DNA from: Argopecten irradians
Taxonomy: Eukaryota > Mollusca > Bivalvia > Pectinida > Pectinidae
Reading direction: 5' to 3'
Assembly: GCF_041381155.1 (NCBI RefSeq)
Contig: NC_091135.1
Location: 60,858,567-60,922,566, forward strand
Length of the DNA stretch: 64,000 bases
In this document: in pieces, positions 13,101 through 54,486 of the stretch
Layout of the letters: each line of letters opens with the position of its first letter
Numbering within the stretch: position 1 is the first letter of the stretch
The notes under the pieces: generated by a model
Seen by the model: only the letters and a program-made list of their open reading frames with translations
Database searches by the model: none
What the model was told of the DNA's origin: nothing
Translations under genes and position numbers: made by a program

Positions 13101-14312
13101 TTTTTTTTTACATCTAATTGAATGGTGGGATGTTTTCTTTTCGCCAAAAATATGCTTCGCCGAATTTTTGAATAATATACCTAAATCATTTACAACATTG
13201 TCTATTTCAGAAGCGGTGACTAGCTCATTCGGCTTAACTACTAACCTGTCCAATTTTCCCATGATATCTTGAAGACTACCAAACGCATCTTCTTCGATAT
13301 GGTTAACATAAGCCATTAATTTTTCATTATTCCATTTTATATAATTATTTGCTGAAGTATTCTCTATATCTTCTCTGTTTGTTCTAGCTATATCCATTTT
13401 GTTAGAGACGCAAAATTCAAGTCTACAGTGAACATCCGAAAATAAGGGGTCAAAATCAAATACTTCGAAGTTAGATATGTGCTTGAAACAATCAGATGAA
13501 AGTAGTAGATAGTCAATCACGCTAGTTTCGTTACATGTAACTTTTCCAATAAATCTGTCTTTCCCAATCCGACCATTAGCAATGAATATATTATTATTTT
13601 TACAAAACTCTAGAAGTTTATATCCAAAACTATAAGTTCTTCCTTTACACTGACTTGTTCTCTGTAACGAAATACCAGCATCACTTAGATTTTGTAGATC
13701 ATAAAAGTATTTATAGAGTTCATCATTAGAATTGATATCTAAAACATCAATAAGAGTATCATCAGGCTGTATATAATCATTATTACATTGTGTTTTGGCA
13801 TTAAAGTCACCAACAAAAGCAAATTTACAATTATCGTCAGCAATATCAATCATTTCGTTTTCAATTTCTTCAAAACAATCGGCTGATGAATATTTCGAGT
13901 TTTCAGGAGGAATGTAAACACAGCCTAAAAGTATATCAAAATCCTTATTAGTTAATGTTTTAGGCAATCTCATCCACTGTATAAAATCAGATGGAGTTTG
14001 GTGGAATTGTAAATGAGTTTTCAACTCTTCTTTATATATAATAAGAATGCCACCCGATTTTCTTTTCACCTCTTTAGACCTGTTTTTACAGAAATATCCA
14101 TAGCCATGTGGTAAATCTAATACATCAAATTCATCCAATTTACTTTCGGCAAAAATCAATATGTCGTACGATTGGATAAGTAAATCAAATTCTGGTGATC
14201 TCAGTTTTGATGATACACCACATACATTAACAAATGTAACTTTAATTGATTTATTCGGACAATGTCCCGGTGTTTCATCGTCAGAGTCACTGTATAGTTC
14301 CTCCTCGCACCC
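12960..14312 (-). CDS. LINE ORF2 part 1: apurinic-like endonuclease
   Basis: The N-terminal endonuclease of ORF2 nicks the target DNA to prime reverse transcription. Motifs seen: KVTFVNVCGVSSKL at the start, FAESKLDEFD (catalytic Glu), FVGDFNAKT (GDFNA motif), SVIDYLLLSSD and FSDVHCRLEF (the SDxH active-site end). The frame directly follows the ORF1 stop in the same register and has no ATG before the first endonuclease strand. The original frame leaves the true ORF2 at the A9 run (13,101-13,109) and ends falsely at 12,960. On the other side of the run the +1 frame continues (KPWFTNECHLKRIL). Confidence 0.88.
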   Translation of the reverse strand, partial: GCEEELYSDSDDETPGHCPNKSIKVTFVNVCGVSSKLRSPEFDLLIQSYDILIFAESKLDEFDVLDLPHGYGYFCKNRSKEVKRKSGGILIIYKEELKTHLQFHQTPSDFIQWMRLPKTLTNKDFDILLGCVYIPPENSKYSSADCFEEIENEMIDIADDNCKFAFVGDFNAKTQCNNDYIQPDDTLIDVLDINSNDELYKYFYDLQNLSDAGISLQRTSQCKGRTYSFGYKLLEFCKNNNIFIANGRIGKDRFIGKVTCNETSVIDYLLLSSDCFKHISNFEVFDFDPLFSDVHCRLEFCVSNKMDIARTNREDIENTSANNYIKWNNEKLMAYVNHIEEDAFGSLQDIMGKLDRLVVKPNELVTASEIDNVVNDLGILFKNSAKHIFGEKKTSHHSIRCKKKEINLGSLMNVILKEFYFTRLKDVIIKIKPRQTRLPLRILVKNTEKL

Positions 14313-15347
14313 TTAGCGGTATCTATCAGGGGTGGAGTCAAAACGCCCTCGCTTGCGGGGACGTCGTCGATTTGGCGTGCCGAATGCGTGGAATGGTGGA
14401 GTAGCATTACGTTGGGTACCTTGGGCATAGTTTCCTGTGGGTTGTGGTGTCTGATGGCCTTGTTCGTCGTAGGGTTGTCCATCTACATATAGGATATCGC
14501 GCACAATTTTGGCCCTGTGCCCCTCTGTGCGGAGCTGGCGTAGTTTGGGATAAAGGCTACGACGCGCCTGCTCAATTTCCTCAGGAAATTGTCGGTTGAT
14601 TCTGTACGGCTTTCCGCGGAGCTTTCTGGCATTTTGTAGGACATGCTCTAGGTCTGCTCGGTAAATAAATTTCGCTATTATCGGCCTAGGACCTCTTCTC
14701 GATTCTCTACCGAATCTATGAACATTAGCAAACTGGGGGGATTCATAAATGCCGAGTTGCTCGTCGAGGAATTGTCGTATGACGTCATATGTATTCTCCC
14801 AGTTCTGCTCATTAATGCCAGAAAAGATCAGATTGTATTTCATAGATCGACATCTCAGGTCCGTAAGTTGTTCTGTAATCTCATCGTTTTTCTCCGTCAA
14901 ATCAGCTAAAAAATGTTCTTTTTCAGTTTTGTATTTGTCTAGGTCTTGTTGTAATTGTTTCACCATGGATTCTAATTTTCTTGTATGTTCTTGTAAGTTT
15001 TTAACGTTTTGTTCACCTTTTTGACATTGTTCGGTCACGCCATCGAAGATGTTACTCAATCCCTTAAGATTATTGTCAAATTCGGAGAAACGTACGTTTA
15101 GTTGACCGGTTTCATTTTCAAGGGAGGTCACTCTTCCCGACAATTTGGACACTGATTCACATACGGTATCTATACGTTTGATGGCAATGTCAAAATAATC
15201 AAGTTTGGAGCTGATGGAATTATTCATTTTTATTATCAACTTATGCAAAGTTTCAAGAGTAATGGGTTCATTCTCAGACTCACAGTCGTATAACGTAGCC
15301 CTGCTTTCAGCTAATACATCAGACAGTTTATCATGCTGGTCTGCCAT
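14313..15347 (-). CDS. LINE ORF1 protein (coiled coil plus RRM-like)
   Basis: A 344-residue ORF1 protein, the RNA-binding chaperone of the retrotransposon particle. Residues about 50-165 form a long heptad-rich coiled coil (SVSKLSGRVTSLENE, LESMVKQLQQDLDKYK). Next comes an RRM-like core beginning RSMKYNLIFSGI and a C-terminal domain with VHRFGRESRRGPRPIIAKF, the layout of L1-type ORF1p. The tail is basic (RRRPRKRGRF) and suits nucleic-acid binding. The ATG at 15,347 starts MADQHDKLSD. The stop is a TAA at 14,313, directly followed in the same frame by ORF2. Confidence 0.88.
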   Translation of the reverse strand: MADQHDKLSDVLAESRATLYDCESENEPITLETLHKLIIKMNNSISSKLDYFDIAIKRIDTVCESVSKLSGRVTSLENETGQLNVRFSEFDNNLKGLSNIFDGVTEQCQKGEQNVKNLQEHTRKLESMVKQLQQDLDKYKTEKEHFLADLTEKNDEITEQLTDLRCRSMKYNLIFSGINEQNWENTYDVIRQFLDEQLGIYESPQFANVHRFGRESRRGPRPIIAKFIYRADLEHVLQNARKLRGKPYRINRQFPEEIEQARRSLYPKLRQLRTEGHRAKIVRDILYVDGQPYDEQGHQTPQPTGNYAQGTQRNATPPFHAFGTPNRRRPRKRGRFDSTPDRYR

Positions 15348-15800
15348 GTTTACATATGTGGTTCACTCGCGTACACAGACAGGTAAGGCACGGGTATTCA
15401 CAGGTGACATACGCGTATATAGTGTTCATTCATGCGGCAATGCGTAATGGCAGTAGTTGAGTACCTTCAGTAGACCGTGACGAATCGCCGATCGTATAGT
15501 CTCCTTACAGCATTGGACGAAATTCACCTGTAAGTCTATTTATAGTAACAGTTTGGATTATAATTTGTTAATAAACACACATCTCAAAAAACTACTTTTC
15601 AAGTTGACAAACTTCAGCAAAGTCACTCCAAATAATACCAAACAGTTCCGATAACGAACTCATGGGAAAATATTGATACTCATCTCGTTACTTCATCGAT
15701 AATCTCCATCTCTGTCAGAGCAATATCAAACGTGTCGGTGAACTGGGCGCCGCCATGTTTTTAAACCCGATGCCGGTCGAATGACTACTGGCTGCCCAGC

Positions 15801-18376: not shown

Positions 18377-20429
18377 CACTTAAAAATAGCTAGCTAAGGG
18401 AAACTAAGAGTATAACTCGATGGTCCTTCTGTCGACAGCAAAGAGAATGAAGGAGATAAGTTGCTTGTTCGTCTTGTGTTAAAACGACAAACGTTCCTGA
18501 TAAAGTTAAAAGTAAAACAGGGGAAACGCAATACTATCGTCAGGACAATATGTACACCATCACATGACTGGTTCATTCACACCTCTTTTAATAAGAAAAT
18601 TATAATTACACTGTACTATCATTATCAGACCATATATCCACTGTAACACATACATGTACTTGGGAATTACAAGATCGCTCAAGTAAATACGTTATACCAA
18701 ATTCAATCGTTTCACTTCTGCATACCACAGTTCAAACTAATTAAAAAAGATGTATTTAAATGCTAATCTAGAACTCAAACACTGTTTTAAATTCATTTTC
18801 TATTATTGGTAAAGTATTAGCAGTTTTGGCTGCTTTTTACTGACTGATTTTGTTGTTTTATCGGACACATGTGTAAACAGGATCGTCAATTTGAAGCAAA
18901 CAAACCGAAATAATCAATTGAACGAGGTAAATATAAATTAAATCAATGATAATATTACGCTATACTCCATACATCACAATCAGAATTTTAGCTATACTCC
19001 GTACACCTCGCGAGCTATACTCCGTACACTGGTGTCTCCTTATAAAACTAATATCTACAAATCATTCAAGAAACCCAGGTTACCAACATTTTGTATTATG
19101 AATATGTATGTATATCCCTTTATGTAAAAAAGGTGATTAGGGTTAAAACCATATAATCATTTCAAAAGAAACGAAAATGTGTGAGTAATCTAACTTTTTA
19201 GCAGGTACACTCCATATATCTTCACAGATAATTCAATAAAGAAGCATTAAAATTCCACAAGTTTTACATTTAATTTAATTCGAATGTTTTCTGAAACGAC
19301 GTGGCCAGGATACAGTCTGCATACTTGTGCTGTATAATTAAAAACAATGACTGAATCATCCCCTCTGATGCTGTATTTTTTAGCTGTCGCTTCGAGTGTA
19401 GCTATTTCCGGTGTACCGATGATAGACGGTGGGCACGTAAAACTTTTTAACCCACCACCCGAGAAGCATCGCGGTAAGTTTTGGGGGTTTGAAAGGCAGA
19501 TCTCAGAAGTCTGAGACTAATGCCAGAAATGAGATATATATAACAAAACATGGACTTGAAAGTTTGTTGAAATTTGCAGAATGTAGAACTGAAAACTCAT
19601 TTTAAACATACTATTCGAGGCCTATATATGTAGTATGATATCGATACTGAATGTCTCTCCGTTTTATGTTCTATTTGAACTTTAACCCTGTCCTACTTAC
19701 ATCTTATCTTATACAAACAGATACTTCTTCAAAGGAAACCAGATAGGATCCAGTGGACATTTATTCAGCAAAATGCAGCAGGTGGTATGCATTGGTGGAT
19801 AATAATACACCTAACATAGACAAAGTGCATAAGTGAGCTGCACATGTGTGATAAAATTACCAGTGTATTTGACTGCACTGTGCAGTGTTCATCTTATCCA
19901 ATCATATCAGTGGACTAGACATTATAAGTTAACTACGTCACATACATGGTTGCCGTTGCAATTTAAATGGCAGAAAATTGTCCGCTTCAAGGTAGAGAGT
20001 GGTATAATGTATCGCCAATAACGACAATCTCAATAAGACAATGAGTGCACCGTACCCCGGACATTTCCATGTAACTGTACGTACCCCGGACATTTCCATG
20101 TAACTGTAACAAGTGTTATTTGTGTTATAAATCTCTCCGTTTCTTCAAACACTCCACCACAATTTCAAAATAGTGCCTGATATCGTTAACACAATCAAGT
20201 CTGGTTTTGTAAACAATCCAAACTACATATTTCCGATGTCGCATGTTGAACACTTTGTTATATTATGTAGCATATCGTAATTAATCACTGTTTAATTTTT
20301 AAATACATACATAATCCTCATATCAAGATATGATATCTACATTTTATAAAAATGATGTCGTTAACACTTAAAATTGAAAATGATGCCGTCAACATTATCA
20401 TTCAATTTCCTGTTAAGCACGGGTTTCAG
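18377..20429. other. Intergenic stretch with one exon-like island
   Basis: Mostly featureless AT-rich sequence. It holds an exon-like piece at 19,368-19,473 and a direct tandem duplication of about 28 bp (GTACCCCGGACATTTCC) at 20,053-20,107. Confidence 0.4.
19368..19473 (+). other. Exon-like segment with signal-peptide-like start
   Basis: From ATG the frame reads MLYFLAVASSVAISGVP and runs to a strong donor (G|GTAAGT) at 19,473/19,474. A T-rich tract and AG lie just before CTGTCGCTTCGAG (19,384), so it could also be an internal exon. The shared AVASSVA segment recurs at 6331 on the minus strand. No partner exons were found. Confidence 0.25.
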
Positions 20430-21109: not shown

Positions 21110-21230
21110 ATTGCCACTGCTGGAGGGAAACTTGCTGGTAAAGTGTGTATAGTGACTGGGGCGACTCGAGGGATTGGTAAAGGAATAGCACTACAGCTGG
21201 GCGAAGCAGGTGCTACAGTCTATATTACAG
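21110..21230 (+). CDS. DHRS1: DHRS1-like A exon 1 (Rossmann cofactor loop)
   Basis: Encodes ATAGGKLAGKVCIVTG and the glycine-rich loop TRGIGKG, ending ATVYIT; phase-1 donor G|GTACG. The T-rich tract and AG just before ATTGCC (about 21,062-21,109) could be an acceptor for an unseen first exon. Differs from copy B exon 1 at about 3 of 118 bases. Confidence 0.85.
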
Positions 21231-24200
21231 GTACGTTTATATATATTAGAAAAGTCAGGTACATCACATATTCCAAGACGAGTTGGTGAATTCGCAACAC
21301 GTACTTTAACCCCGTCAATGACCTAAACATGTGTACACATTTACTTATAATGCATTAGGTACTGTCACTTTATCTTGAACCATAAGTGATACAATTCATC
21401 ATATACCTGTTGACACATTTCATTCAATGGAAATATGTACAATACAAGAAAAATAACATGATCTGATGAGGAGGAGACTTGAAGAACTGGAAGTGAAATT
21501 TGCCGTTTATATATCAAACGACAGTAGGAATTTGCCATTTTCAGATATATTCATGTATTTAAGCATTGATGTCACTATTTTTTAATTTTATCGGGGTATG
21601 AAAAAAAAATTTGTTTGCAAACTGTGTGAATCCGCGTAGCGGATTCTCACAAAAGTTTGCAAACAATTTTTTTTCATAACCCGATAAAATTAAAAAATAG
21701 TGACATCAATACTTATAATTAATTTTATACTCTATTTGATAAAATGAAGTATGTTTAAATGTAACATTATAGTGGTTTTTCAAGGGATTCTTTTTTCCGA
21801 ATCAATACGCAACGTCAATGTCTCTATTGTGACGTCACGAAAACGTCGGGGTTTCGCGCCATTCTCGGATTTTTTTTTTTCATAGTGGTATGCAAAAAAA
21901 ATATTGACCAATCAGAAAGCCATATTTGGTATGAAAACAAAGAAAAATTAATTATTAATTACAATGGTATCCGATTGTATGATTCAAAATACACAGATCA
22001 AAGCGTAAACGATACGTTTATCCGAATTCAAGCATATCCGTTTGTGGTGTATAATTAAATGTAAAGACAGTGGCGTAGGAATATGAAACGTAATGGGGGG
22101 AGGGGGGTGGGGTGGCAAAGGTCCTCAATATTTCGTAACACCCCCCCCCCCCCCCCCCCCCCCCCATCGCGCCCATCACACCCACAAGAGATACTCGCTA
22201 CAATTTTTCAGATATAAATACATGTTATCCTTGTACACATCTATAGACAGTGGCGTAGCTAATAGGAAATCAATGAATACGCAAATTAGCGTGCGAGTTT
22301 GGGGGATTCCGGGGGGGGGGGGTATCCCCTAAAAATTTTAAAGATTTAGAATGACTGAGATGAGTTTAACGATAGATATTGATGATTTTGCGAGTGCCGA
22401 AGGCGCGAGATTTGGTGTTTGGGGGGTACGGGGGTCTCCCCCGGGAAAAAAATGTACAATTAATAATGCCAGAGACGAGTTTTACGATGTTTTTTGTTGA
22501 ATTTACGATAGCCGAAGGCGCAAGATTTTTGTGTTTGGTGGGTCCGGGTTCTTCGCCGGGAAAAAAATCTACGATTTAGAATGGATGAGATGAATTTTAC
22601 GCTGCATTTTGTGATTTTGCGAGCGCCGAAGTTGCGAGATTTTGGTGTTTGGGGGTCCGGGGTCTCCCCGGGAAAAAAGATGAGTTTTACGATGCATTTT
22701 GATGGTTTTAAAGCGTTCTTAACACGGTAATTGTTCGATTTAAGGTTACCAGCATTTAGAAATGATAATTGTGAGTGTCTTCATTCCATTATGCAACCCA
22801 GCTCGATCTGAACATACCGGATTCACCCCATCGGCACATTGTTGTGTAACTCAAAACAATAATGAATGATTGTCTTCCTAAGACATATAAACAAATTGAT
22901 CTTTCAAAAGCATTTTTTGGAATAGTATTATCCATTGATGGACTTTTTTTAGTTTAGTTCGTGCGTATTAAATTTTCATTATTAAAGGTTTAAAAATTAC
23001 GTGTTTGAAAGTTTAAGGAAACGCGCCGCGCAGCGGAAAATTTTCTAAAATGAAGTACAAAAATGTGCAGGAAGAACTTTTTTCTTTCAAATTTGCATAT
23101 GAAGAACATTTGCCCCCCTGACCCCCGCTTCCTACGCCCCTGAAAGATAATTAATCAGAAGTCTAATACATCGAAGGGTAGAATATTACCTATAAGCTCT
23201 TTATTAACTTGAGCTAACTAGCTAGCTCGCCAATTGAAAAAAAAAAAAATGATAAATTCATAGATTCACCATCTTCGATACTTCAGGTGTTACTATCAGT
23301 GATGCCATATCTCCCATGGACTATCTCATAGTAAAACTGAAGATAGTTTTCTAGAGAAAAAATAACTGATCAATAAGAGAAGTCCTTTGAAGGTACAATC
23401 AACCACTGTTTACCGTTATTCGGTTCTTTTAACATGCATAAATTTAGGAACCAATTCACCCGGGACTTCTGGTTACTTCAGGTTTACTACGAAAATCAAA
23501 GCAGAACGTTCCTCCTCTTTGTGACATTTGATATATTTTGACATGTAACAGGGCAAAGAAGTGTGTCACCAGCCAGGCTCGACCACGGACTTATTGGTCC
23601 GCCGCTCTACCGACTGAGCAATATATCCTGCTACAGACAGATTAGCTTATTGCCTCTTCGTTGACAGTAACCGTTTTTATTTTATAGGTAGAACCTTGGT
23701 GGTTACCAAAGACAGCATTGTAGGTGGATCACTTACGGATACAGCTAGAGAGGTAAGTTTGTACGCCTTCCTCCGTGTTGTGTGGGAGTGGACCACGGGT
23801 CACTTACGGATACAGCTAGAGAGGTAAGTTTGTACGCCTTCCTCCGTGTTGTGTGGGAGTGGACCACGGGTCACTTACGGATACAGCTAGAGAGGTAAGT
23901 TTGTACGCTTTCCTCCGTGTTGTGTGGACCACGGGTCACTTACGGATACAGCTAGAGAGGTAAGTTTGTACGCCTTCCTCCGTATTGTGTGGACCACGGG
24001 TCACTTGCGGATACAACTAGAGAGGTAAGTTTGTACGCCTTCCTCCGTGTTGTGTGGGAGTGGACCACGGGTCACTTACGGATACAGCTAGAGAGGTAAG
24101 TTTGTACGCCTTCCTCCGTGTTGTGTAGGAGTGGACCACGGGTCACTTACGGATACAGCTAGAGAAGTAAGTTTGTACGCCTTACTCCGTGTTGTGTGGG

Positions 24201-27200
24201 AGTGGACCACGGGTCACTTACGGATACAGCTAGAGAGGTAAGTTTGTATGCCTTCCTCCGTGTTGTGTGGGAGAGGACCACGGGTCACTTATGATACAGC
24301 TAGAGAGGTAAGTTTGTACGCCTTCCTCCGTGTTGTGTGGGAGTGGACCACGGGTCACTTACGGATACAGCTAGAGAGGTAAGTTTGTACGCCTTCCTCC
24401 GTATTGTATGGACCACGGGTCACTTACGGATACAGCTAGAGAGGTAAGTTTGTACGCTTTCCTCCGTGTTGTGTGGACCACGGGTCACTTACGGATACAG
24501 CTAGAGAGGTAAGTTTTTACGCCTTCCTCCGTATTGTGTGGACCACGGGTCACTTACGCATACAGCTAGAGAGGTAAGTTTGTACGCCTTCCTCCGTGTT
24601 GTGTGGGAGTGGACCACGGGTCACTTACGGATACAGCTAGAGAGGTAAGTTTGTACGCCTTCCTCCGTATTGTGTGGACCACGGGTCACTTACGGATACA
24701 GCTAGAGAGGTAAGTGTGTAGCCTTCCTCCGTGTTGTGTGGGAGTGGACCACGGGTCACTTACGGATACAGCTAGAGAGGTAAGTTTGTACGCCTTCCTC
24801 CGTATTGTGTGGACCACGGGTCACTTGCGGATACAACTAGAGAGGTAAGTTTGTACGCCTTCCTCCGTGTTGTGTAGGAGTGAACCATGGGTCACTTACG
24901 GATACAGCTAGAAAGGTAAGTTTGTACGCCTTCCTCCGTGTTGTGTGGGAGTGGACCACGGGTCACTTACGGATACAGCTAGTGAGGTAAGTTTGTACGC
25001 CTTCCTTCGTGTTGTGTGGGAGTGGACCACGGGTCAATTACGGATACAGCTAGAGAGGTAAGTTTGTACGCCTTCCTCCGTATTGTGTGGACCACGGGTC
25101 ACTTACGGATACAACTAGAGAGGTAAGTTTGTACGCCTTCCTCCGTATTGTGTGAACCACGGGTCACTTACGGATACAGCTAGAGAGGTAAGTTTTTACG
25201 CCTTGCTCCGTATTATGTGGGAGTGGACCACGGGTCACTTATGCTAGGTTTACACTATGTTCCCGGCGACCACGTTTGCCCGAAACGTGGTGCGCCGTGG
25301 AATTTTGGCTATTTTTGTATCTGTATTCAAGTTGAGCTTGGTCTTGTGAAGTTTTGCCACGGTCTTTTACGGATTACGTGGTGGGCCGTAGACATAGGGG
25401 AAAGTGTGTTCCCGGAGGTTAAAGGAACACTACGGCTTTAGCACGGTCTATCAAGAATACCACTACGTTCTCTCCTTGGTCTGTTACGATCTGATGAGGT
25501 CTGCTACGTTTTACACGTTTTGATCGAACACCAATACGTTTTTCACGGTCCGCCAAGGCTTACTAGGATAAAAGTCTGATGCCGGGCTTTTTGGAGCAAC
25601 TGAAACAATATGTATTGCCGAAAATGTCATTTCAAACACGTTTTAATTAAAAAAATTGTTAAAAGCATATTTGGTATAAATATATAATTATATCCAAGTG
25701 TTTCTACGCAAATATATTTTTTTCTGTACTCGTTTAATCAGCCTTTTGCAATAATAGCTTCAATCTAATTAGATTGTAATAGCTTTGGTATGATTTGAGG
25801 GTTTAAATGTGTTTGATGACCATTGCTATTTATTAATACAAATAATTTAATGAAGTAGCAAATATGTACAAGGTCAGGCAATGATACCCCATCATATTTT
25901 GCTTGCAATGTAAGACCGTAATAAGACGTAACATGCCGTATCACGTCGGACTTTCAACCGCTACAAGCCGTGAGATGCCTTGACAGAACGCATCAAACCG
26001 GTTTTCATCCGCCTTGGCTTGCCGTCAAAACCTTGACAAACCTGGACAAAACGTGGAAAAAACGCAACAAAACGTCACTAAACTTGAAATCACCGTGAGA
26101 TTCTGGGGAACGTGCTTGCTGCCCGTTCCACTACGGACCGTTTTTCAGTTCTGTTACGGCCTCGTACACGCTGTTACGTTTTGTTACGTCAATCCCGTTT
26201 TATTACGTCCTGTGGCGTTCTCCATCTGTACCGTGACTGCCGTAGTAAATCTTTTCACAGTTTAAAAATCTGGCACGGCATCCACGGTAATCACGACCGC
26301 TCACGTTTGTCTATCACGTCCTTCTGCGTTGTCTCACGTTTTCTCGCGGTCACCACGTTTTGTCCACGGTGGCCTGAAACGGGGCTGCCGTGGAAGCCGG
26401 GAACATAACTTGTAAACCTAGCATTACGGATACAACTACTAAGTAGTAAGTTTGTACGCCTTCCTCCGTACTGTGTGGGAGTGGATCACGGGTCACTAAA
26501 TAGATACAGCTAGAGAAGTAAGTTTGTACGCCTTGCTCCGTATTGTGTGGGAGTGGACCACGGGTCACTTACGGATACAGCTAGAGTGGTAATTTTGTAC
26601 GCCTTCCTCCGTATTATGTGGGAGTGGACCACGGGTCACTAAATAGAAACAGCTAGAGAGGTAAGTTTGTACGCCTTGCCCCGTATTGTCTGGGAGTGGA
26701 CCACGGGTCACTTACCGATACAGCTAGAGTGGTAAGTTTGTACGCCTTCCACCGTATTGTGTGGGAGTGGACCACGGGTTACCTACGGATAAAGCTAGAG
26801 AGGTAAGTTTGTACGCCTTCCTCCGTATTGTGTAGGAATGGACCACGAGTCACTTACGGATAAAGCTAGAGAGGTAAGTTTGTACGCCTTCCTCCGTATT
26901 GTGTGGGAATGGACCACGAGTCACTTACGGATAAAGCTAGAGAGGTAAGTTTGTACGCCTTCCTCCGTATTGTGTGGGAATGGACCACGAGTCACTTACG
27001 GATAAAGCTAGAGAGGTAAGTTTGTACGCCTTCCTCCGTATTGTGTGGGAGTGGACCACGAGTCACTTACGGATACAGCTAGAGAGGTAAGTTTGTACGC
27101 CTTCCTCCGTATTGTGTGGGAGTGGACCACGGGTCACTTACGGATACAGCTAGAGAGGTAAATTTGTACGCCTTCCTCCGAATTGTGTGGGAGTGGACCA

Positions 27201-30200
27201 CAGGTCACTTATGGATAGAGCTAGAGAGGTAAGTTTGTACGCCTTCTTACCCGTATTGTGTGAAAGTGGACCATGAGTCACTTATAGATACAGTTAGAGA
27301 GGTAAGTTTGTACGCCTTCCTCCGTATTGTGTGTGAGTGGACCACGGGTCACTAAATAGATACAGCTAGAGAGGTAAGTTTGCAGGCCTTCCTCCGTATT
27401 GTGTGGGAGTGGACCACGGGTCACTAAATAGATAATGCTAGAGAGGTAAGTTTGTACGCCTTCCTCCGTATTTTGTGGGAGTGGACCACGGGTTACTTAC
27501 GGATACAGCTAGAGAGGTAAGTTTGTACGCCTTCCTCTGTTTGTGTGTGGAGTGCCGGGTGTGGGGGTGGCTTGGACCATGAGTCACCCACGCATACAGC
27601 TAGAGAGGTAAGTTAGTAAGCCTTCCTCCGTATTTTGTGGGAGTGGACCACGATTCACTTACGGATACAGCTAGAGAGGTAAGTTTGTACGCCTTCCTCC
27701 GTATTGTGTGGGAGTGGACCACGAGTCACTTACGGATACAGCTAGAGAGGTAAGTTTGTACGCCTTCCTCCGTATTGTGTGGGAGTGGACCACGTGTCAC
27801 TTACGGATACAGCTAGAGAGGTAAGTGTGTACGCCTTCCTCCGTATTTTGTGGGAGTGGACCACGAGTCGTCACTTATAGATACATCTAGAGAGGTAAGT
27901 TTGTACGCCTTCCTCCGTATTGTGTGGGAGTGGACCACGTGTCATTTACGGATACAGCTAGAGAGGTAAGTGTGTACGCCTTCCTCCGTATTTTGTGGGA
28001 GTGGACCACGAGTCACTTATAGATACAGTTAGAGAGGTAAGTGTGTACGCCTTCCTCCGTATTGTGTGGGAGTGGACCACGAGTCACTTATAGATACAGC
28101 TAGAGAGGTAAGTTTGTACGCCTTCCTCCGTATTGTGTGGGAGTGGACCACGAGTCACTTATAGATACAGCTAGAGAGGTAAGTTTGTACAGGCCTTCCT
28201 CCGTATTGTGTGGGAGTGGACCACGGGTCACCAAATAGAAATGCTAGAGAGGTAAGATTGTACGCCTTCCTCCGTATTTTGTGGGAGTGGACCACGGTTA
28301 CTTACGGATACAGCTAGAGAGGTAAGTTTGTACGCCTTCCTCCGTATTGTGTGGGAGTGGACCACGAGTCACCTATACATACAGCTAGAGAGGTAAGTTT
28401 GTACGCCTTCCTCCGTATTGTGTGGGAGTGGACCACGGGTCACCAAATAGAAATGCTAGAGAGGTAAGATTGTACGCCTTCCTCCGTATTTGTGGGAGTG
28501 GACCACGGGTTACTTACGGATACAGCTAGAGAGGTAAGTTTGTACGCCTTCCTCCGTATTGTGTGGGCTTGGGCCACGAGTCACCTACGCATACAGCTAG
28601 AGAGGTAAGTTTGTACGCCTTCCTCCGTATTTTGTGGGAGAGGACCATGAGTCACTTATAGATACAGTTAGAGAGGTAAGTGTGTACGCCTTCCTCCGTA
28701 TTGTGTGGGAGTGGACCACGAGTCACTTATAGATACAGCTAGAGAGGTAAGTTTGTACGCCTTCCTCCGTATTGTGTGGGAGTGGACCACGGTCCCTTAC
28801 GATACAGCTAGAGAGGTAAGTTGTACGCCTTCCTCCGTATTGTGTGGGTGGACCACGAGTCACTTACGGATAAGCTAGAGAGGTAGTGTGTACGCCTTCC
28901 TCCGTATTGTGTGGGAGTGGACCATGAGTCACTTATAGATACAGCTAGAGAGGTAAGTTTGTACGCCTTCCTCCGTATTGTGTGGGAGTGGACCACGGGT
29001 CACTTACGGATACAGCTAGAGAGGTAAGTGTGTACGCCTTCCTCCGTATTGTGTTGGAGTGGACCACGGTTACTTACGGATAAAGCTAGAGAGGTAAGTG
29101 TGTACGCCTTCCTCCGTATTGTGTGGAGTGGACCATGAGTCACTTATAGATACAGCTAGAGAGGTAAGTGTGTACGCCTTCCTCCGTATTGTGTGGGAGT
29201 GGACCACGGTCACTTACGGATAAAGCTAGAGAGGTAAGTGTGTACGCCTTCCTCCGTATTGTGTGGGAGTGGACCATGATTCACTTATAGATACAGCTAG
29301 AGAGGTAAGTTTGTACGCCTTCCTCCGTATTGTGTGGGAGTGGACCAGTGGGTCACTTACGGATACAGCTAGAGAGGTAAGTGTTGTACGCCTTCCTCCG
29401 TATTGTGTGGGATTGGGCCACGAGTCACCTACGCATACAGCAAGAGAGGTAAGTTTGTACGCCTTCCTCCGTATTTTGTGGGAGAGGACCATGAGTCACT
29501 TATAGATACAGTTAGAGAGGTAAGTTTGTACGCCTTCCTCCGTATTGTGTGGGAGTGGACCACGGGTCACTTACGGATACAGCTAGAGAGGTAAGTTTGT
29601 ACGCCTTCCTCCGTATTGTGTGGGAGTGGACCACGGGTCACTTACGGATACAGCTAGAGAGGTAAGTGTGTACGCCTTCCTCCGTATTGTGTGGGAGTGG
29701 ACCACGAGTCACTTACGGATACAGCTAGAGAGGTAAGTGTGTACGCCTTCCTCCGTTTTGTGTGGGAGTGGGACCACGAGTCCACTTACGGTATTACAGC
29801 TAGAGAGGTAAGTGTGTACGCCTTCCTCCGTATTGTGTGGGAGTGGACCATGAGTCACTTATAGATACAGCTAGAGAGGTAAGTTTGTACGCCTTCCTCC
29901 GTATTGTGTGGGAGTGGACCACGGGTCACTTACGGATACAGCTAGAGAGGTAAGTGTGTACGCCTTCCTCCGTATTGTGTTGGAGTGGACCACGGGTTAC
30001 TTACGGATAAAGCTAGAGAGGTAAGTGTGTACGCCTTCCTCCGTATTGTGTGGGAGTGGACCATGAGTCACTTATAGATACAGCTAGAGAGGTAAGTTTG
30101 TACGCCTTCCTCCGTGTTGTGTGGGAGTGGACCACGGGTCACTTACGGATACAGCTAGAGAGGTAAGTTTGTACGCCTTCCTCCGTGTTGTGTGGGAGTG

Positions 30201-33200
30201 GACCACGGGTCACTTACGGATACAGCTAGAGAGGTAAGTTTGTACGCCTTCCTCCGTATTGTGTGGGAGTGGACCACGAGTCACTTACGGATACAGCTAG
30301 AGAGGTAAGTTTGTACGCCTTCCTCCGTATTGTGTGGGAGTGGACCACGGGTCACTTACGGATACAGCTAGAGAGGTAAGGTAAGTTTGTACGCCTTACG
30401 GATCCTCCGTAAGTTGTGTACCTCCGTTTGTGAGGAGTGGACCACGAGTCACTTATAGATACAGCTAGAGAGGTAAGTTTGTACGCCTTCCTCCGTGATG
30501 TGTGGGAGTGGACCACGGGTCACTTACGGATACAGCTAGAGAGGTAAGTGTGTACGCCTTCCTCCGTATTGTGTGGGAGTGGACCACGAGTCACTTACGG
30601 ATAAAGCTAGAGAGGTAAGTGTGTACGCCTTCCTCCGTATTGTGTGGGAGTGGACCATGATTCACTTATAGATACAGCTAGAGAGGTAAGTTTGTACGCC
30701 TTCTCCGTATTGTGTGGGAGTGGACCACGGGTCACTTCGGATACAGCTAGAGAGGTAAGTGTGTACGCCTTCCTCCGTTTGTGTGGAGTGACCACGGTCA
30801 CTTAGATACATAGAGAGGTAAGTTTGTACGCCTTCCTCCGTGTTGTAGGAGTGGAACAGGGTCACTTAGGATAAGGCCTTCCTCCGTATTGTGTGGGAGA
30901 GGACCATGAGTCACTTATAGATACAGTTAGAGAGGTAAGTTTGTACGCCTTCTTCCGTGTTGTAAGGGAGTGGAACACGAGTCACTTACGGATAAAGCTA
31001 GAAAGGTAAATGTGTGTCGCCTTCATCCGTATTGTGTGGAAGTGGACCACGAGTCACTTATGGATACAGCTACAGAGGTAAGTTTGTACGCCTTCCTCCG
31101 TATTGTGTGGGAGTGGACCACGGGTCACTTACGGATACAGCTAGAAAGGTAAGTTTGTACGCCTTTCTTCGTATAAGGTGAGAGTGGACCACACTATAAT
31201 GTATCAGAAGGTTGACAAGCTGGGGTTAGGGACGGTATTCTGATGTATAGTAGGGACGGGATTCTGATGTATAGTAGGGACGGTATTCTGATGTATAGTA
31301 GGGACGGGATTCTGATGTATAGTAGGAACGGGATTCTGATGTATAGTAGGGACGGGATTCTGATGTATAGTAGGGACGGGATTCTGATGTATAGTAGGAA
31401 CGGGATTCTGATGTATAGTAGGGACGGTATTCTGATGTAGTAGGAACGGGATTCTGATGTATAGTAGGGACGGGATTCTGATGTATAGTAGGGACGGGAT
31501 TCTGATGTATAGTAGGGACGGTATTCTGATGTATAGTAGGGACGGGATTCTGATGTATAGTAGGAACGGGATTCTGATGTATAGTAGGGACGGGATTCTG
31601 ATGTATAGTAGGAACGGGATTCTGATGTATAGTAGGGACGGGATTCTGATGTATAGTAGGAACGGGATTCTGATGTATAGTAGGGACGGGATTCTGATGT
31701 ATAGTAGGGACGGGATTCTGATGTATAGTAGGGACGGGATTCTGATGTATAGTAGGGACGGGATTCTGATGTATAGTAGGGACGGGATTCTGATGTATAG
31801 TAGGGACGGGATTCTGATGTATAGTAGGGACGGGATTCTGATGTATAGTAGGGACGGGATTCTGATGTATAGTAGGGACGGGATTCTGATGTATAGTAGG
31901 GACGGGATTCTGATGTATAGTAGGGACGGGATTCTGATGTATAGTAGGGACGGGATTCTGATGTATAGTAGGAACGGGATTCTGATGTATAGTAGGGACG
32001 GGATTCTGATGTATAGTAGGAACGGGATTCTGATGTATAGTAGGGACGGGATTCTGATGTATAGTAGGAAACGGGATTCTGATGTATAGTAGGGACGGGA
32101 TTCTGATGTATAGTAGGGACGGGATTCTGATGTATAGTAGGGACGGGATTCTGATGTATAGTAGGGACGGGATTCTGATGTATAGTAGGAACGGGATTCT
32201 GATGTATAGTAGGAATGTGATTCTTATGTATTGTAGGAACGGGATTCTGATGTATAGTAGGGACGGGATTCTGATGTATAGTAGGAACGGGATTCTGATG
32301 TATAGTAGGGACGGGATTCTGATGTATAGTAGGACGGGATTCTGATGTATAGTAGGAACGGGATTCTGATGTATAGTAGGGACGGGATTCTGATGTATAG
32401 TAGGGACGGGATTCTGATGTATAGTAGGGACGGGATTCTGATGTATAGTAGGGACGGGATTCTGATGTATAGTAGGGACGGGATTCTGATGTATAGTAGG
32501 GAATGGGATTCTGATGTATAGTAGGATGGGATTCTGATGTAAAGTAGGGACGGGATTCTGATGTATAGTAGGGACGGGATTCTGATGTATAGTAGGGACG
32601 GGATTCTGAGGTATAGTATGGACGGGATTCTGATGGATTCGAGTATAGTAGGGATCGGGATTCTGATGTGTAGAGTGATATATAAGGACGAAGGTGTTGT
32701 CCCACAGCAGGTTGTCCCACGGTCTCTTATCCCCGTCATACTTACTATGGTACACAATGATCATCAACGATCGGACACTTCACCTGCTCAGGACCGATTC
32801 TTCTGAGACGGAACGACAAGTGACGTTCAGGAGTGTGTTAGGAGCATCATCGATATTCCTGGGGTTACTATCAAATATTATTTATCACATGTATCACACA
32901 TCATTATATTCCCCTGGAATATTTTTATAGCAAAACAGAAGGTTCTGTGTTTGACAACCGATGAGACAAGTAGTTTTATACTTTGATGTACATCATAAGA
33001 GTCGAATTACGGATCACTGAGCTTATCTGTGCGGTTTTGAAGCTAGGCGTCGCTGTCTCTGTAATCTTACAAAGAAGTTTATGCAGGCTTGTGATTGGTC
33101 ATTTTTTTCTTCTGAACTGCCTTCAGTTTTGATATGACATATTCTAGGGGTAGGTATACAGAACAAGGCCATATTATTTGGATATACTCCTCAAGGAAGT

Positions 33201-36200
33201 CTGTGTCATAACTGGAATATACAAGATATAAGCCACGCCTTATCATCACACACAACATGTAGGGCATGAATAACCAGAAACAGGATTACAAGGTTTCTGT
33301 GTCAACATTTGTCTACGCGTGCAAGTCCAATCAAGCATGAATTGACTGGCCTTGCTCCATGTCTTTGATGATCGGTCGAAATACCAGGGTTGAAATTGGC
33401 GTTTGTTTTGGGTACTGGTACCTCGGCTTCTAAGGTTCATGTATCGAAATATTTGGACGCCAACGGGAAGTGCGTATTAATAGCAAATTGCAAAGGCTTA
33501 CTCGTTGAAAGAAATCACAGCAGAAGGAAACGTAGGACACCAAGGTTTCTGGGGACGGTCCTATCTATTTGCGAGAGTAATTGCCTTCTGCAGAAGCCAC
33601 AAGCTCGCTTAAAAGTAGAAGCAGACGACATATCTTGTAACAAATCAGCCTAATATGAACCCGTATACAATGTAAAGAGTAAAGATGGGGAGGGAATAAC
33701 AGGGACTGTCTACTTTTTGCCAGGAAGACTATCAACACATGCTTCAATGACAAATAAGCCAATTATAGTGAGCGAACGACCTGTTAGCCAAGAAGACTCC
33801 GGAGCAATACCTCCAAGACCGGCAGTTCCTCGTAGAAGATGCTGGTATGGGATGATGTGCCAACAGCACCACAGCCAGACCCAGTTCCAGTCATCGCAGT
33901 ATCAATGAAGAGGAGGAGGTGACTGCTGAACCGGGGAGTTTGAATGAAGGCGCTCTCCAAGAACTCCATTTGGAAGAACCTGCCACTGCGGACCAGTAAT
34001 GAGGATGAAACACCAATGACGGACTCTCCTGGTATTTCTCCAAAACGGTCAAGAGGGACAAGAGCAAACCCAGGTGAATGGACGGGTCATATATGTTCAG
34101 CCATCAAGCATCGACATAGCCAGGTTGGTAAGCTGGCCAACATCATGGTTGAGATGTCTGCGGCAGTTATAGACATTATTGCAGGATCATTGACTTCATG
34201 AAAATATTACGATTTCGACAGCATTTGGCATCGATCAAATCGGTCTTTTAGGTAAAACATAATTTATTACTTTAGTTATTTAATACATTTGGCTGGTAGA
34301 GGAGAGGGGTGGTAAATGTATACCTGTACAATGTGACCTGTATATATATATTACAGGTAGAGGAGAGGAGAGGTAAGTGTATACCTGTACAATGTGACCT
34401 GTATATTTATATTAAAGGTAGAGGAGAGGGGAGGTAAATGTATACATGTACAATGTGACCTGTATATATATATATTACAGGTAGAAGAGAGTTAAATGTA
34501 TACCTGTACAATGTGATGTGTATATAAATATTACAGGTAGAGGGTAGGGGAGGTAAATGTATACCTGTACAATGTGACCTGTATATAGATATTACAGGTA
34601 GAGGAGAGGGGAGGTAAGTGTATACCTGTACAATGTGACCTGTATATAAATATTACATGTAGGGGAGAGAGGAGGTAAATGTATACCTGATCCATATAAC
34701 CTGTATATAAATATTACAGGTAGAGGAGAGGGGAGATAATTGTATACATGTACAATATGACCTGTATAAATATATATTACAGGTAGAGGAGAGGCGAGGT
34801 TAATGTGACCTGTATTTAAATATTACAGGTAGAGGAGAGGGGAGGTAAATGTATACGTGTACAATGTGACCTGAATATATATATTACAGGTAGAGGGGAG
34901 GTAAATGTATACCTGTACAATGTGACCTGTATATATATATATTACAGGTAGAGGAGAGGGGAGGTAAATGTATACCTGTACAATGTGACCTGAATATATA
35001 TATATATTACAGGTAGAGGAGAGGGGAGGTAAATGTATACCTGTACAATGTGACCTGAATATATAAATATTACAGGTAGAGGAGAGGGGAGGTAAATGTA
35101 TACCTGTACAATGTGACCACACCAAGGATGAAGAGATCCAGCAGCTGTTTGACAAGGTCAAGAGGGAACAGGAAGGTCAGCTGGATATCCTTGTCAACAA
35201 TGCCTACAGCGCCGTCAAGGTATGTTGGCCGATTGTCTGTGTATTTACTCCGCATCACGCTAATGAAAGCTTAAATGTATAAGGACAAAGTCAAAAGACT
35301 GTGCATTGAATTATTGTTATTCTATCAATACAAGTCTTTGTTTGCTGGCTTTTAGTGTTCACCTGTTGCATCCTCTATAGATGAGATATTATTGTTACCA
35401 TTTTCCAATTTATTCCGAAGGGTATTTCGATGTAGTTTCTTTCCATCCATATTTCTACCTTTTTATGTCCCTGCCAAATGCTTATTTAGTAACATTACGC
35501 ATACGTTGATAATTATTTTCTACTTAGCATGGTAATCGATTTAAACCAGGCATAAACATCAGCCATGTTGTAATTACACAATTGTAGTTTACTGATGTAT
35601 CTCTAAACAATTTCTTTTTTACTTTGTCTTTATTACATACATTGTGTATTTGAATACTAAGCAGCTGTACTTTTGTCAGAGCTTAACAGTTATCTAAGAC
35701 ACGAGGAACTTGCTTTTAAACACTTATGCCATGTGTGTGAAAATAACATTTGGTCATTTTTATACTCTGGTTGCCCACTGAGATTAACACGGTTCTCCTA
35801 ATTTGTTTCGAATCCATTTTGCAGGCTATCTTTGACAATGTGGATGTGCCTTTTTGGGAATTCCCAATGGATATGTGGGACACCGTTAATAATGTGGGAC
35901 TCAGGTAAATGCGTCGTATACCGCTCTCTTTTCTTTTGTAGTTCTATTACATGTAAATATGTATTAGTGTAGTTTAAACTTTATATGATGTCATTGTTTA
36001 TCACTCAAAACCAACAAACCGATGCATGACAACAAAGACAAATTCAAAAACGCAACTGTACACGGAGTAGTGTTAAAACTCGCCGTCAAGTCAGGAGGGA
36101 TAATCACTCAACTTATCCTCCATTGTAACCGACCTTGTTGTCGGTATAGCAAATCTGGGTCGCGTAACGTCTCCGAAAAGAAATAACGAAATATAAGTAT

Positions 36201-39200: not shown

Positions 39201-40595
39201 TATTGAACATACATGTATCAATAATTGCACTCCTTTATTATCCTTTTGCAGTACTTCAGTAGTTGTATATGTATACTTAATTTACTAGTACATTAAAATC
39301 GTCCTTACATTTGTGATATCCATTCATACCATATCTACTACTACTACGACAATATGCCAGGGTGTTGCACGTGTGAATTTTTCAATAGTGGGTCTACTGA
39401 TATCATACTGAAGCATATGGAACACCAAAAAGCACATATCGCGCTCACATTATACTGACAACGGGTAAACCAGTCGTTCCACTTCTTTTATTCTGAACGC
39501 TTATCAGGAACTGAAACTACCACTTTCATAGACTATAGTGAATGCCGGCCAGGGGACAGAACTCACAGTCTTCACCACAAAGACGAGCATTCAAAATGCC
39601 AAAAGTGAGGCGTTACCAAGGGAACAAGAAACTAAGTTCTGAACCAGAGAAAAGATAATATCTCAAATTTAGTTGACTGATACAGGCATCAAAATTAAAC
39701 TAAAGCGCCGAGTTTGTTAAAGGGACAATTCAGTCTAAGAGTACATTAAAATTTGTACATATATCGGAAAAAATCCAGTTCCAATATAAATTAGATCAGT
39801 TGGTTCTACTGTGATATGCCAGAAAAGCCCATGGTGGTGAAATGCGTGTGAAATGTTCAAACTCGCTCGCTGTCCGCCATTACACATTGTGGTCGAACAT
39901 CTTGTATGCCGAACCCTGTCCCTTGCTCGTAGAGTAATGCAACTTTCGTCTAGAACTGCTCAAATCGCTCTGACAGTAGTGTGTTTACCTTATTAGACGA
40001 ATTATCTTGCCTCAAAATCATTTTATCACCTCCTCAGTGGTTATGTAGTTAATTTGTTTAACGTGCGTGACTTTGGCTCGGGTATGAGTACATCGTACAT
40101 TTGTACCTGCTGAATCGTATTGATCAATGATTTGTATTTACGACGGTATCAATTAAAATACTAAACACTGACGTGGAATTTGTCTATATTTTATGTTATG
40201 TGTTTCATAAGAAATGTAGAACAATACATTTATGCCATAGTTTGCTTCTTGATTATGTAAAAGAATTAACTTGAGCGAATTGTCTCTTTAAGATATATAG
40301 ATTCTCGACCTGACAATATTAACCTCACCAAAATTTGATTGCATTAAACAATACTGACAGTTCAAAAACTGGACACATTTAGTACAAATTCTTGGTTTAA
40401 TGTCTGTGTTTATAATAACAACGATTGTCGGACTACAATTGAGTATTTTATCTTTTAGGTAGAGAAATGGTATCTTTCCGAAACCTAAAGGAACTCCTGA
40501 TGTTGTCTCCAAAGACTCAGTGGATAGCACGCTTGGTTCCACGATTCATCTACATCCCCAAGTTGATATTCGCTCTGTTGGGAAATAAATTTTAA
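21110..40595 (+). CDS. DHRS1: DHRS1-like short-chain dehydrogenase/reductase, copy A (9 exons)
   Basis: Predicted NAD(P)H-dependent short-chain dehydrogenase/reductase of the DHRS1 type, about 325 residues (human DHRS1: 313). Exons: 21110-21230, 23688-23752, 35076-35219, 35825-35904, 36356-36488, 37649-37780, 38788-38869, 39037-39117, 40459-40595. All junctions are GT-AG and keep the frame. Seen: cofactor loop VTGATRGIGKG, the NNAY motif, ISSIGG with the catalytic serine, YGIGK (catalytic Tyr and Lys), WPGPVRTE, and a hydrophobic C-terminus ending GNKF, like TSKF of human DHRS1. Physiological substrate unknown. Where copy B has ATG, copy A has ATT, and no in-frame ATG follows the upstream stop at 21,056. 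It needs an upstream first exon or a non-AUG start, or it is inactive. Intron 2 is 11.3 kb of mostly minisatellite. Confidence 0.85.
21565..21710. repeat. Palindrome in intron 1, ~60-bp arms
   Basis: ATTGATGTCACTATTTTTTA and the following bases are inverted at the right edge. The centre holds GAATCCGCGTAGCGGATTC. Probably a foldback element. Confidence 0.8.
22068..23142. mobile_element. hAT-like non-autonomous element in intron 1
   Basis: The ends CAGTGGCGTAGGAA and TTCCTACGCCCCTG are typical of hAT termini. A second left-type end (CAGTGGCGTAGC) lies at 22,248, so the element is compound or partly duplicated. AAAGA flanks both ends, shorter than the 8 bp expected for hAT. Inside, about three direct repeats of ~115 bp (22,380-22,690) carry GCCGAAGGCGCGAGATTT and CCCCGGGAAAAAA. 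Confidence 0.65.
23270..23410 (+). mobile_element. Fragment of the ATCCTCGATATTCC MITE family
   Basis: Starts CATCTTCGATACTTCAGG and reaches CTATCTCATAGTAAAACTG, matching the left half of the element at 20,430. The right half has decayed. Confidence 0.6.
23563..23634 (-). repeat. tRNA-derived SINE fragment
   Basis: Minus strand: TTGCTCAGTCGGTAGAGC (A-box-like), a perfect 5-bp stem CGGAC/GTCCG with a 6-base loop, and GGTCGAGCC (degenerate B-box). The loop length and lack of an acceptor stem argue against a functional tRNA. Confidence 0.5.
23688..23752 (+). CDS. DHRS1: DHRS1-like A exon 2
   Basis: Encodes RTLVVTKDSIVGGSLTDTARE after a phase-1 acceptor (TTTATAG|GT). It ends GAG|GTAAGT, a near-consensus donor. 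The last ~25 bases (SLTDTARE) and the donor are the seed of the following 71-bp array. Confidence 0.85.
23753..31192 (+). repeat. 71-bp minisatellite carrying the exon 2 end and its 5' splice site
   Basis: About 88 units (array length less the insertion, divided by 71). Each unit starts GTAAGTTTGTACGCCTTCC and ends CTTACGGATACAGCTAGAGAG, that is, the last ~25 bases of exon 2. Every junction therefore recreates GAG|GTAAGT. The left block (to 25,241) mostly reads CCGTGTTGTG and includes ~64-bp units lacking GGGAGTG. The right block (from 26,427) mostly reads CCGTATTGTG with ACGAGTCACTTATAG variants. The period is not a multiple of three, so use of a downstream donor would usually shift the frame. 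Confidence 0.95.
25242..26423. mobile_element. 1.2-kb TIR element inserted in the 71-bp array
   Basis: The ends TGCTAGGTTTACAC and CCGGGAACATA...GTAAACCTAGCA are inverted repeats of about 25 bp. TTA is duplicated on each side (25,239-25,241 and 26,424-26,426), restoring the array unit when the element is ignored. A 3-bp TTA target site would fit PIF/Harbinger-type elements, but no transposase is present. The interior is rich in short ACGG/ACGTT motifs on alternating strands. Confidence 0.8.
31228..32669. repeat. 24-bp minisatellite, ~60 units
   Basis: Unit GGGATTCTGATGTATAGTAG plus GGAC (or GAAC), highly uniform. As 24 is a multiple of three and several frames contain no stop, long periodic open frames exist on both strands (units MYSRDGIL, YYTSESRP, PTIHQNPV). 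These are not genes. Confidence 0.95.
32845..33153. mobile_element. MITE, ATCCTCGATATTCC family (second copy)
   Basis: Starts CATCATCGATATTCCTGGGG and shares the interior with the element at 20,430 (AAGCTAGGCGTCGCT, TTGTGATTGGTCA). The right terminal repeat is shortened. Confidence 0.7.
33154..34295. other. Unidentified intronic stretch, partly coding-like in composition
   Basis: Between the MITE and the acceptor array. From about 33,380 to 34,200 base composition is less AT-rich than its surroundings and several frames stay open for 60-90 codons, but no family motif is recognised. It may be a decayed insert of unknown origin. Confidence 0.35.
34296..35075 (+). repeat. ~61-bp minisatellite carrying the exon 3 acceptor (copy A)
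   Basis: About 13 units. Each runs from GTAGAGGAGAGGGGAGGTAA through CCTGTACAATGTGACC (the first 43 bases of exon 3) to a TA run and TTACAG. Each unit therefore holds a copy of the intron 2 acceptor and the exon 3 start. The last unit leads into the real exon 3 at 35,076. Confidence 0.95.
35076..35219 (+). CDS. DHRS1: DHRS1-like A exon 3
   Basis: 48 codons, phase 0 at both ends: VEERGGKCIPVQCD (aligned with human GGQCVPVVCD), then HTKDEEIQQLF and the LVNNAYSAVK motif. Donor AAG|GTATGT. About 97% identical to copy B exon 3 by eye. Confidence 0.92.
35825..35904 (+). CDS. DHRS1: DHRS1-like A exon 4
   Basis: Encodes AIFDNVDVPFWEFPMDMWDT and VNNVGLR, matching human FWETPASMWDDINNVGLR. Acceptor TTTTGCAG, donor AG|GTAAAT, phase 2. 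Only about 80% identical to copy B. Confidence 0.92.
36356..36488 (+). CDS. DHRS1: DHRS1-like A exon 5 (catalytic Ser, Tyr, Lys)
   Basis: Encodes NHYLCTIQAAKMMVPRKRG, LIVNISSIGG (catalytic Ser) and YGIGKEA (catalytic Tyr and Lys). Acceptor TTTCAG, donor GCG|GTGAGT. About 70% identical to copy B, the least conserved coding block apart from the end of exon 6. Confidence 0.92.
36721..36770. repeat. T-run followed by G20 homopolymer
   Basis: T-rich 36,721-36,750 followed by 20 consecutive G (36,751-36,770) in intron 5. Length is likely unreliable or variable. Confidence 0.8.
37238..37572. repeat. Palindromic AT microsatellite
   Basis: Irregular repeats of ATAAGATATCTTAT, each its own reverse complement, within intron 5. 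Likely to form cruciforms or be hard to assemble. Confidence 0.85.
37649..37780 (+). CDS. DHRS1: DHRS1-like A exon 6
   Basis: CDRMAADCAIELKKHNVAMV then SLWPGPVRTE (matching human SLWPGIVQTE) and a diverged end IQFFINESSANNV. The first ~75 bases differ from copy B at one site and the rest hardly aligns. Confidence 0.92.
37866..38287 (+). mobile_element. Helentron-like non-autonomous element in intron 6
   Basis: 5' end AGCTCGCCTA with a hairpin (CCTATTC/GAATAGG). The inverse TAGGCGAGCT lies at 38,253-38,262, followed by a 3' hairpin GCTGTT-CTCC-AACAGC and a terminal TCTTGTT. The core has 1.6 copies of a 166-bp tandem repeat. This matches Helentron-associated (HINE/pearl-type) elements known from bivalves and flies. 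Confidence 0.7.
38788..38869 (+). CDS. DHRS1: DHRS1-like A exon 7
   Basis: GNVNVRGMFEVGESIEYAGK and AVSYLAS, aligned with human FSSAETTELSGKCVVALAT. Acceptor TTCTTCAG, donor G|GTAATT, phase 1. Confidence 0.88.
39037..39117 (+). CDS. DHRS1: DHRS1-like A exon 8
   Basis: DPNIMKKTGKILITAELGSE then YGFVDING, aligned with human DPNILSLSGKVLPSCDLARRYG...DVDG. Acceptor TTCACCAG, donor G|GTATGT, phase 1. Confidence 0.9.
39717..40291 (+). mobile_element. TTAA-bounded MITE, family 1 (copy 2), intron 8
   Basis: TTAA + AGGGACAATTC at the left, GAATTGTCTCT + TTAA at the right. Collinear with 52,551-53,127. Confidence 0.8.
40459..40595 (+). CDS. DHRS1: DHRS1-like A exon 9 and stop
   Basis: Encodes REMVSFRNLKELLMLSPK, a hydrophobic stretch and FIYIPKLIFALLGNKF before TAA (40,593). 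This matches the human C-terminus (FLRVPKWIIALYTSKF), likely an amphipathic or membrane-associated tail. Confidence 0.9.
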
Positions 40596-44526: not shown

Positions 44527-44694
44527 GTCCGTCTCTTCAAGTGTCAAACCGAAAGTAGATTACGTATATAGCGTTTAATATGTTCCTCGCTGAGCGTTGT
44601 GTAGTATACACAGACGTATACTCTCCTCTCTCTGCTCCTTCAGTATAGGACTGAGTAGTTTTCTGGTTCTGACCACTAGTAACAAACATCGTGG

Positions 44695-46411: not shown

Positions 46412-46579
46412 CCACGATGTTTGTTACTAGTGGTCAGAACCAGAAAACTACTCAGTCCTATACTGAAGGAGCAGAGAGAGGAGAGTATACGTCTGTGTAT
46501 ACTACACAACGCTCAGCGAGGAACATATTAAACGCTATATACGTAATCTACTTTCGGTTTGACACTTGAAGAGACGGAC

Positions 46580-54365: not shown

Positions 54366-54486
54366 ATGGCCACTGCTGGAGGGAAACTTGCTGGTAAAGT
54401 GTGTATAGTGACTGGGGCGACCCGAGGGATTGGTAAAGGAATAGCGCTACAGCTGGGCGAGGCAGGTGCTACAGTCTATATTACAG
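54366..54486 (+). CDS. DHRS1: DHRS1-like B exon 1
   Basis: MATAGGKLAGKVCIVTGATR, then GIGKGIALQLGEAG; donor G|GTATT. Three differences from copy A in 118 bases. Confidence 0.92.

Follow-up and report, generated by a model that had tools for sequence, protein, structure and literature searches.

The window analyzed here is a 64,000-nucleotide stretch of the forward strand of Argopecten irradians contig NC_091135.1 (RefSeq assembly GCF_041381155.1; positions 60,858,567 to 60,922,566). It holds two DHRS1-like genes, both on the forward strand, referred to below as gene A and gene B. Gene A (20041-40595) encodes the annotated 336-amino-acid A. irradians protein P0001; residues 13 to 336 are exact exon matches in the window, and residues 1 to 12 are encoded by the first exon (20041-20076). 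Exons 1 to 6 of its paralogue, gene B (54366-61299), encode residues 1 to 224 of the 322-amino-acid A. irradians protein P0004; no match to the remaining residues was found up to the end of the window at 64000. The P0001 and P0004 records, both DHRS1-like, list PF00106 and PF13561, in agreement with membership in the SDR family. Intron 2 lies between a short exon 2 (65 nt at 23688-23752 in gene A and 62 nt at 55121-55182 in gene B) and a 144-nt exon 3 (35076-35219 and 57533-57676, respectively), and both ends of this intron in both genes are tandem arrays that repeat the splice junction itself.

The first-pass annotation of this DNA had described a minisatellite of about 88 units in gene A that repeats an exon end together with its 5' splice site, and this description proved accurate. 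The gene A donor array (23729-31192, forward strand) carries 88 in-register donors in units of ~71 bp, some of which in the left block measure 65 bp. In each unit, the last 24 nt of exon 2 are followed by 47 nt counted from the donor onward, and the first donor, at 23753, directly follows exon 2. Array limits were taken from Tandem Repeats Finder, which placed 71-bp arrays within 23729-31192, broken around 25241-26424; the donor count came from wrap-around alignment to one unit. GT is present in all 88 donors, GTAAGT in 81, and the exact consensus GAG|GTAAGT in 75, and the 24-nt exonic part is identical to the functional exon end in 30 of the 88 copies. Donors are spaced 71 bp apart in 50 of 86 cases and 65 bp apart in 9 of the 21 spacings of the left block. 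A 1.18-kb terminal-inverted-repeat element (25241-26424) interrupts the array, leaving 22 in-register donors to its left and 66 to its right; its outer inverted repeats are perfect over 14 bp, and TTA flanks it on either side. Two more partial units lack a donor, one being cut by the element and the other having its donor deleted. Further inverted repeats are contained within the element.

The opposite end of this intron is occupied by an acceptor array (34295-35118, forward strand) of 14 copies of a ~63-bp unit, which is made up of a 43-nt exon 3 head and a 20-nt intron tail ending in TTACAG. The final copy is the start of exon 3, and 12 of the 14 copies have AG before the exon 3 head. Together the two junction arrays occupy 7,038 of the 11,323 nt of gene A intron 2. 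The intron also holds a 24-bp minisatellite of ~59 copies (31227-32635), in the unit of which no piece of exon 2 or exon 3 was noticed by eye, the only comparison made.

Gene B shows this layout as well. Its donor array (55175-56255, forward strand) is built from 47 copies of a 23-bp unit, CCCAACAG|GTAAGCCTTGATTAT; the first copy is the annotated donor, and the final one is truncated. GT is found in 30 of the 47 units and has been lost from the other 17; CAGGTAAGC is found in 22. The donor array directly adjoins an acceptor array (56256-57575, forward strand) in which the ~63-bp unit of gene A recurs in 21 copies, 18 of them with AG before the head, and exon 3 begins at the final copy (Tandem Repeats Finder limits, 55175-56256 and 56256-57575). 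Gene B intron 2 (55183-57532; 2,350 nt) thus lies entirely within the two arrays. In all four arrays, the annotated splice site is the terminal copy. The gene A acceptor array, the gene B arrays at the same intron, and the 1.18-kb element had been overlooked in the first-pass annotation; with the acceptor array and the parallel in gene B taken into account, what looked like a single odd array reads as a process that recurred at both intron ends.

To survey the other junctions, a 24-nt word around each of the 29 splice junctions of genes A and B was compared with 1.5 kb on either side, with a cutoff of at least 18 matches. Copies of the junction word were found at four of the 29 junctions, namely, both ends of intron 2 in gene A and in gene B. 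Below this cutoff (16 of 24 matches) lies a 29-bp unit in two exact copies (20051-20108) that spans the 5' splice site of gene A's annotated first exon and is possibly a new, two-copy instance of a junction-straddling duplication.

The conservation of the repeated splice sites differed between the arrays. In gene A, the exonic tail of the unit is about as variable as the rest (rank 35 of 71 for conservation; 0.064 versus 0.071 differences per site from the first unit). The donor window from -3 to +6 ranked ninth, and invariance is seen in several other pairs of neighboring columns as well. Selection on the inner gene A donors was for these reasons not accepted as proved, and evidence for constraint on them is ambiguous. 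In the gene B unit, few positions vary more than the GT pair (conservation rank 20 of 23), and the inner gene B donors are therefore not all required. The AG pair of the acceptor unit ranked 9 of 63 in gene A and 43 of 63 in gene B.

The consequences of splice site choice were determined by translating every pairing of a GT donor with an AG acceptor of intron 2 through exon 6. Only one of 1,056 gene A pairs remained open and in frame, that of the first donor with the last acceptor, and only two of 540 gene B pairs did so, that of the first or the second donor with the last acceptor. Judged by length alone, 347 and 176 pairs, respectively, are in frame. The annotated proteins of both genes equal the product of the first donor and the last acceptor. 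When the last acceptor was paired with each of the 87 downstream gene A donors, all 87 products stopped prematurely, and all did so at one codon; this shared stop comes from the TAA within the donor itself, except with donor 2, where a TAG at the start of exon 3 is shifted into frame. The first-pass annotation had predicted that the choice of a downstream donor would mostly shift the frame, and the outcome is stronger than that prediction. In gene B, 28 of 29 downstream donors led to a stop with the last acceptor, and with the first donor, all upstream acceptors did so in both genes (11 of 11 in gene A and 17 of 17 in gene B). Divided by 3, the usual donor-unit lengths of 71, 65, and 23 each leave a remainder of 2, and units of this class bring the TAA of the next donor into frame; agreement of this kind in two independent arrays has a chance of about 1 in 9. 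A protein search for isoforms containing extra acceptor units, confined to the stretch in question, gave none among 4,874 candidates at an E value of ≤0.001, a weak negative, as the known protein also went unreported and misspliced products would seldom enter a protein database.

Hiding of the inner donors by RNA structure was considered as well, as the ACTTAC of the exon tail could pair with GTAAGT. Local folding did not single out the first donor: its probability of being unpaired in gene A was 0.012 (median, 0.009; rank 35 of 88), and the first gene B donor ranked 11 of 30. At ten other annotated donors, the values ranged from 0.000 to 0.136. This candidate was rejected.

Comparison of the two genes bears on the history of the arrays. 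The acceptor consensus units of genes A and B, with the consensus ACAG|GTAGAG, are identical across 63 nt. Moreover, a rare variant head is common to gene A unit 5 and gene B unit 13, which share the same five deleted columns and one substitution and otherwise differ at 3 of 43 columns. As judged from these sequences, the two acceptor arrays belong to a single lineage. By contrast, the donor arrays look independent, since their unit lengths differ and each was made from its own exon 2. A similar division is seen in the coding sequence. Exon 1 (21110-21230 versus 54366-54486) and exon 3 are 97% identical between the genes, and synonymous differences per site, counted in codons for the same residue, were 0.09 for exon 1, 0.11 for exon 3, and 0.23 for exon 6, versus 0.98, 0.62, and 0.93 for exons 2, 4, and 5. 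Exons 1 and 3 together have six synonymous differences over ~62 sites, and the other four exons have 48 over ~69; at the protein level, 74 of 92 amino acids of exons 2, 4, and 5 are the same. On a simple reading, exon 1, and exon 3 together with its acceptor array, may have been exchanged once the two genes had diverged, without exon 2 and its donor taking part. The similarity breaks off only a few bases from either end of exon 1 and from the downstream end of exon 3, and upstream of exon 3 it continues into the acceptor array. Ordinary gene conversion does not fit well with limits so close to the exon ends.

Taken together, these results make it probable, in our judgment, that intron 2 of the two DHRS1-like genes was enlarged by tandem duplication straddling its own splice junctions, with the copies hidden by exon definition. 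When a segment containing an exon tail and its donor is duplicated, the exon end would survive intact in the first copy; when an acceptor with its exon head is duplicated, the intact copy would be the last, so that all remaining copies fall within the intron. If sites are paired across the short exons 2 and 3, as exon definition predicts, the first donor and the last acceptor would be used, and the array copies would be spliced out with the intron and affect the protein little. The arrays would then be free to expand and to decay through slippage and unequal exchange. We infer from the sequence that the outermost sites are used in both genes; misspliced messages would presumably be removed by nonsense-mediated decay, and the arrays themselves would probably be neutral. 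Published experiments lend support to the first-donor half of this model. Five minigenes in PMC9225289, each carrying a pair of identical CAG/guaagu donors under exon definition, spliced at the upstream donor and not at the other; in long human introns, when the competing donors were of near-equal strength, preference went to the one nearest across the exon.

Several observations weigh against this interpretation. Large arrays lie at intron 2 of both genes and at none of the 25 other junctions tested, a pattern that plain neutrality does not lead one to expect. GT has been kept in every one of the 88 gene A donors, and GTAAGT is the second least variable six-column window of the 71 in the gene A unit, which may hint at constraint. 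The annotated proteins, which correspond to the first donor and the last acceptor, may themselves rest on homology. According to PMC9225289, ~60% of human alternative-donor events favor the downstream donor before strength matching, and where acceptors of similar strength compete under exon definition, the preference for the upstream one is only reduced. The last-acceptor half of the model is therefore less well supported than the first-donor half.

An alternative, raised in part by the first-pass annotation, is that the array acts as a length switch or dosage dial: any one inner copy would seldom serve as donor, with each use leading to a stop and decay, so that longer arrays would lower output and differ between individuals. 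In its favor are the 88 consensus-like donors of gene A, the single stop codon reached from all downstream gene A donors with the last acceptor, and the shared 2-modulo-3 unit lengths. A precedent is found in human IFI6, for which PMC4526556 reports two downstream repeat units as used donors. On the other hand, the identical-donor minigenes of PMC9225289 used the upstream donor alone, and 17 of the 47 gene B units have lost GT; we regard a length switch as unlikely. Similarly speculative is a combination of the two ideas, in which introns would enlarge themselves as both junctions become minisatellites, the array would serve as a copy-number-dependent dial of output, and the acceptor array would move between paralogues with exon 3. 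The endpoint of such a process would be gene B, the whole intron of which lies within copies of its own two ends, and unit lengths that bring TAA into frame would be tolerated, since decay destroys splicing errors.

Removal of the intron in pieces, by recursive or dual-specific splicing that leaves the final message unchanged, appears still less probable. The AG|GT core in most gene B units could act as both acceptor and donor, and the gene A acceptor units contain both ACAG|GTAGAG and GGAG|GTAAAT. Arguing against it, 17 gene B units are without GT, and at the 23-nt spacing only distant gene B units could pair, as 23 nt is too short for one intron. A precedent comes from PMC10809524: human UBC makes use of dual-specific sites, and introns spliced in this way are reported to be 8.4-fold enriched in human tandem repeats.

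An assembly artefact, whether inflated copy number or misassembled arrays, would be a natural concern for sequence that is hard to assemble, yet the 88 gene A units include 73 distinct sequences, and exact repeats within the gene A donor array reach at most 185 bp, which counts against simple assembly duplication. A transposon-like element with TTA flanks inside the gene A array, as well as the presence of the layout in two genes with differing donor units, makes this explanation very improbable. Gene A has ATT where exon 1 of gene B has ATG, and it therefore relies on another first exon; that it is a decayed copy in which splicing no longer matters is nonetheless hardly credible, as its frame is open over 336 amino acids and equals the annotated protein, the 74 shared amino acids of exons 2, 4, and 5 were kept despite 0.62 to 0.98 differences per synonymous site, and gene B has the ATG and the same layout.

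The arrays of intron 2 offer a rare natural experiment in splice site choice: in each transcript dozens of near-identical donors compete, opposite near-identical acceptors, and they do so in two genes. The prediction of exon definition that the first donor and the last acceptor are used thus becomes testable. The arrangement also suggests a simple route to longer introns, in which duplications across the junctions are concealed by splicing, with gene B as the extreme. If the outermost signals alone are used, as the sequence and the published minigenes suggest, the array copies would be harmless passengers.

The window contains several other repeats and open frames. Satellites of ~155, 161, and 126 bp (59588-60993, 61663-63594, and 63592-64000, respectively) lie in gene B intron 5 and after exon 6, and a dispersed repeat, 89% identical between its two sites, lies in the last intron of gene A (39717-40301) and upstream of gene B (52551-53137). 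An inverted pair of nearly identical 658-codon open frames (42583-44559, reverse strand, and 46547-48523, forward strand), which we take to be HSP70-like, is found between the two genes. Three adjacent long open frames of 785, 450, and 349 codons (10750-15362, reverse strand) presumably resemble a LINE-type retrotransposon.

A literature search of titles and abstract openings, for which the subscription literature was mostly out of reach so that absence is weak evidence, returned no arrays at both ends of an intron and no intron consisting solely of such arrays. One close relative in kind is a minisatellite of human IFI6 (G1P3, 6-16) that provides multiple splice donor sites, reportedly described by Turri, Cuin and Porter in 1995 and said to have a unit of ~12 bp in ~26 copies. 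The first-pass annotation knew of no described case of this size; as to kind, one is on record. The two downstream IFI6 repeat units that PMC4526556 reports as donors serve in splicing between exons 2 and 3. As in IFI6, the minisatellite units of the scallop genes carry donors, with an exon end and a donor in each unit (GT in 88 of 88 in gene A and in 30 of 47 in gene B). Unlike in IFI6, the units here are 71 and 23 bp in 88 and 47 copies, the intron also has an acceptor array at its opposite end, and two paralogues share the layout.

Arrays of dual-specific AG|GT splice sites have been described in human UBC (Duan et al. 2024, PMC10809524). As in UBC, repeat units with an AG|GT core are found in both scallop genes (GAG|GTAAGT in gene A, CAGGTAAGC in 22 of the 47 gene B donor units, and ACAG|GTAGAG in the acceptor units), and, per the same source, splicing can hide their expansion. 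The UBC units, however, are coding (228 nt, in frame) and yield messages with more or fewer monomers, as stated in that text, whereas most units here are out of frame and lie within one existing intron; a frame-keeping unit length of the UBC type was not found (71, 65, and 23 bp; one of 1,056 and two of 540 pairs open). PMC3039753 was set aside as a precedent, since the minisatellite there is a transcription start. In human duplicated genes, internal tandem repeats at exon-intron boundaries account for 27 intron modifications (PMC2812944). These are likewise variable minisatellites at exon-intron boundaries; they average 30-bp units in four copies, 160 bp in total, and can create new introns, whereas here thousands of bases have been added to an existing intron at both ends. 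Finally, PMC3443670 reviews the gain of introns when AGGT segments undergo tandem genomic duplication. Such gains share with the scallop arrays the principle that splicing makes a tandem duplication harmless, the difference here being that an existing intron has been lengthened and none newly made.

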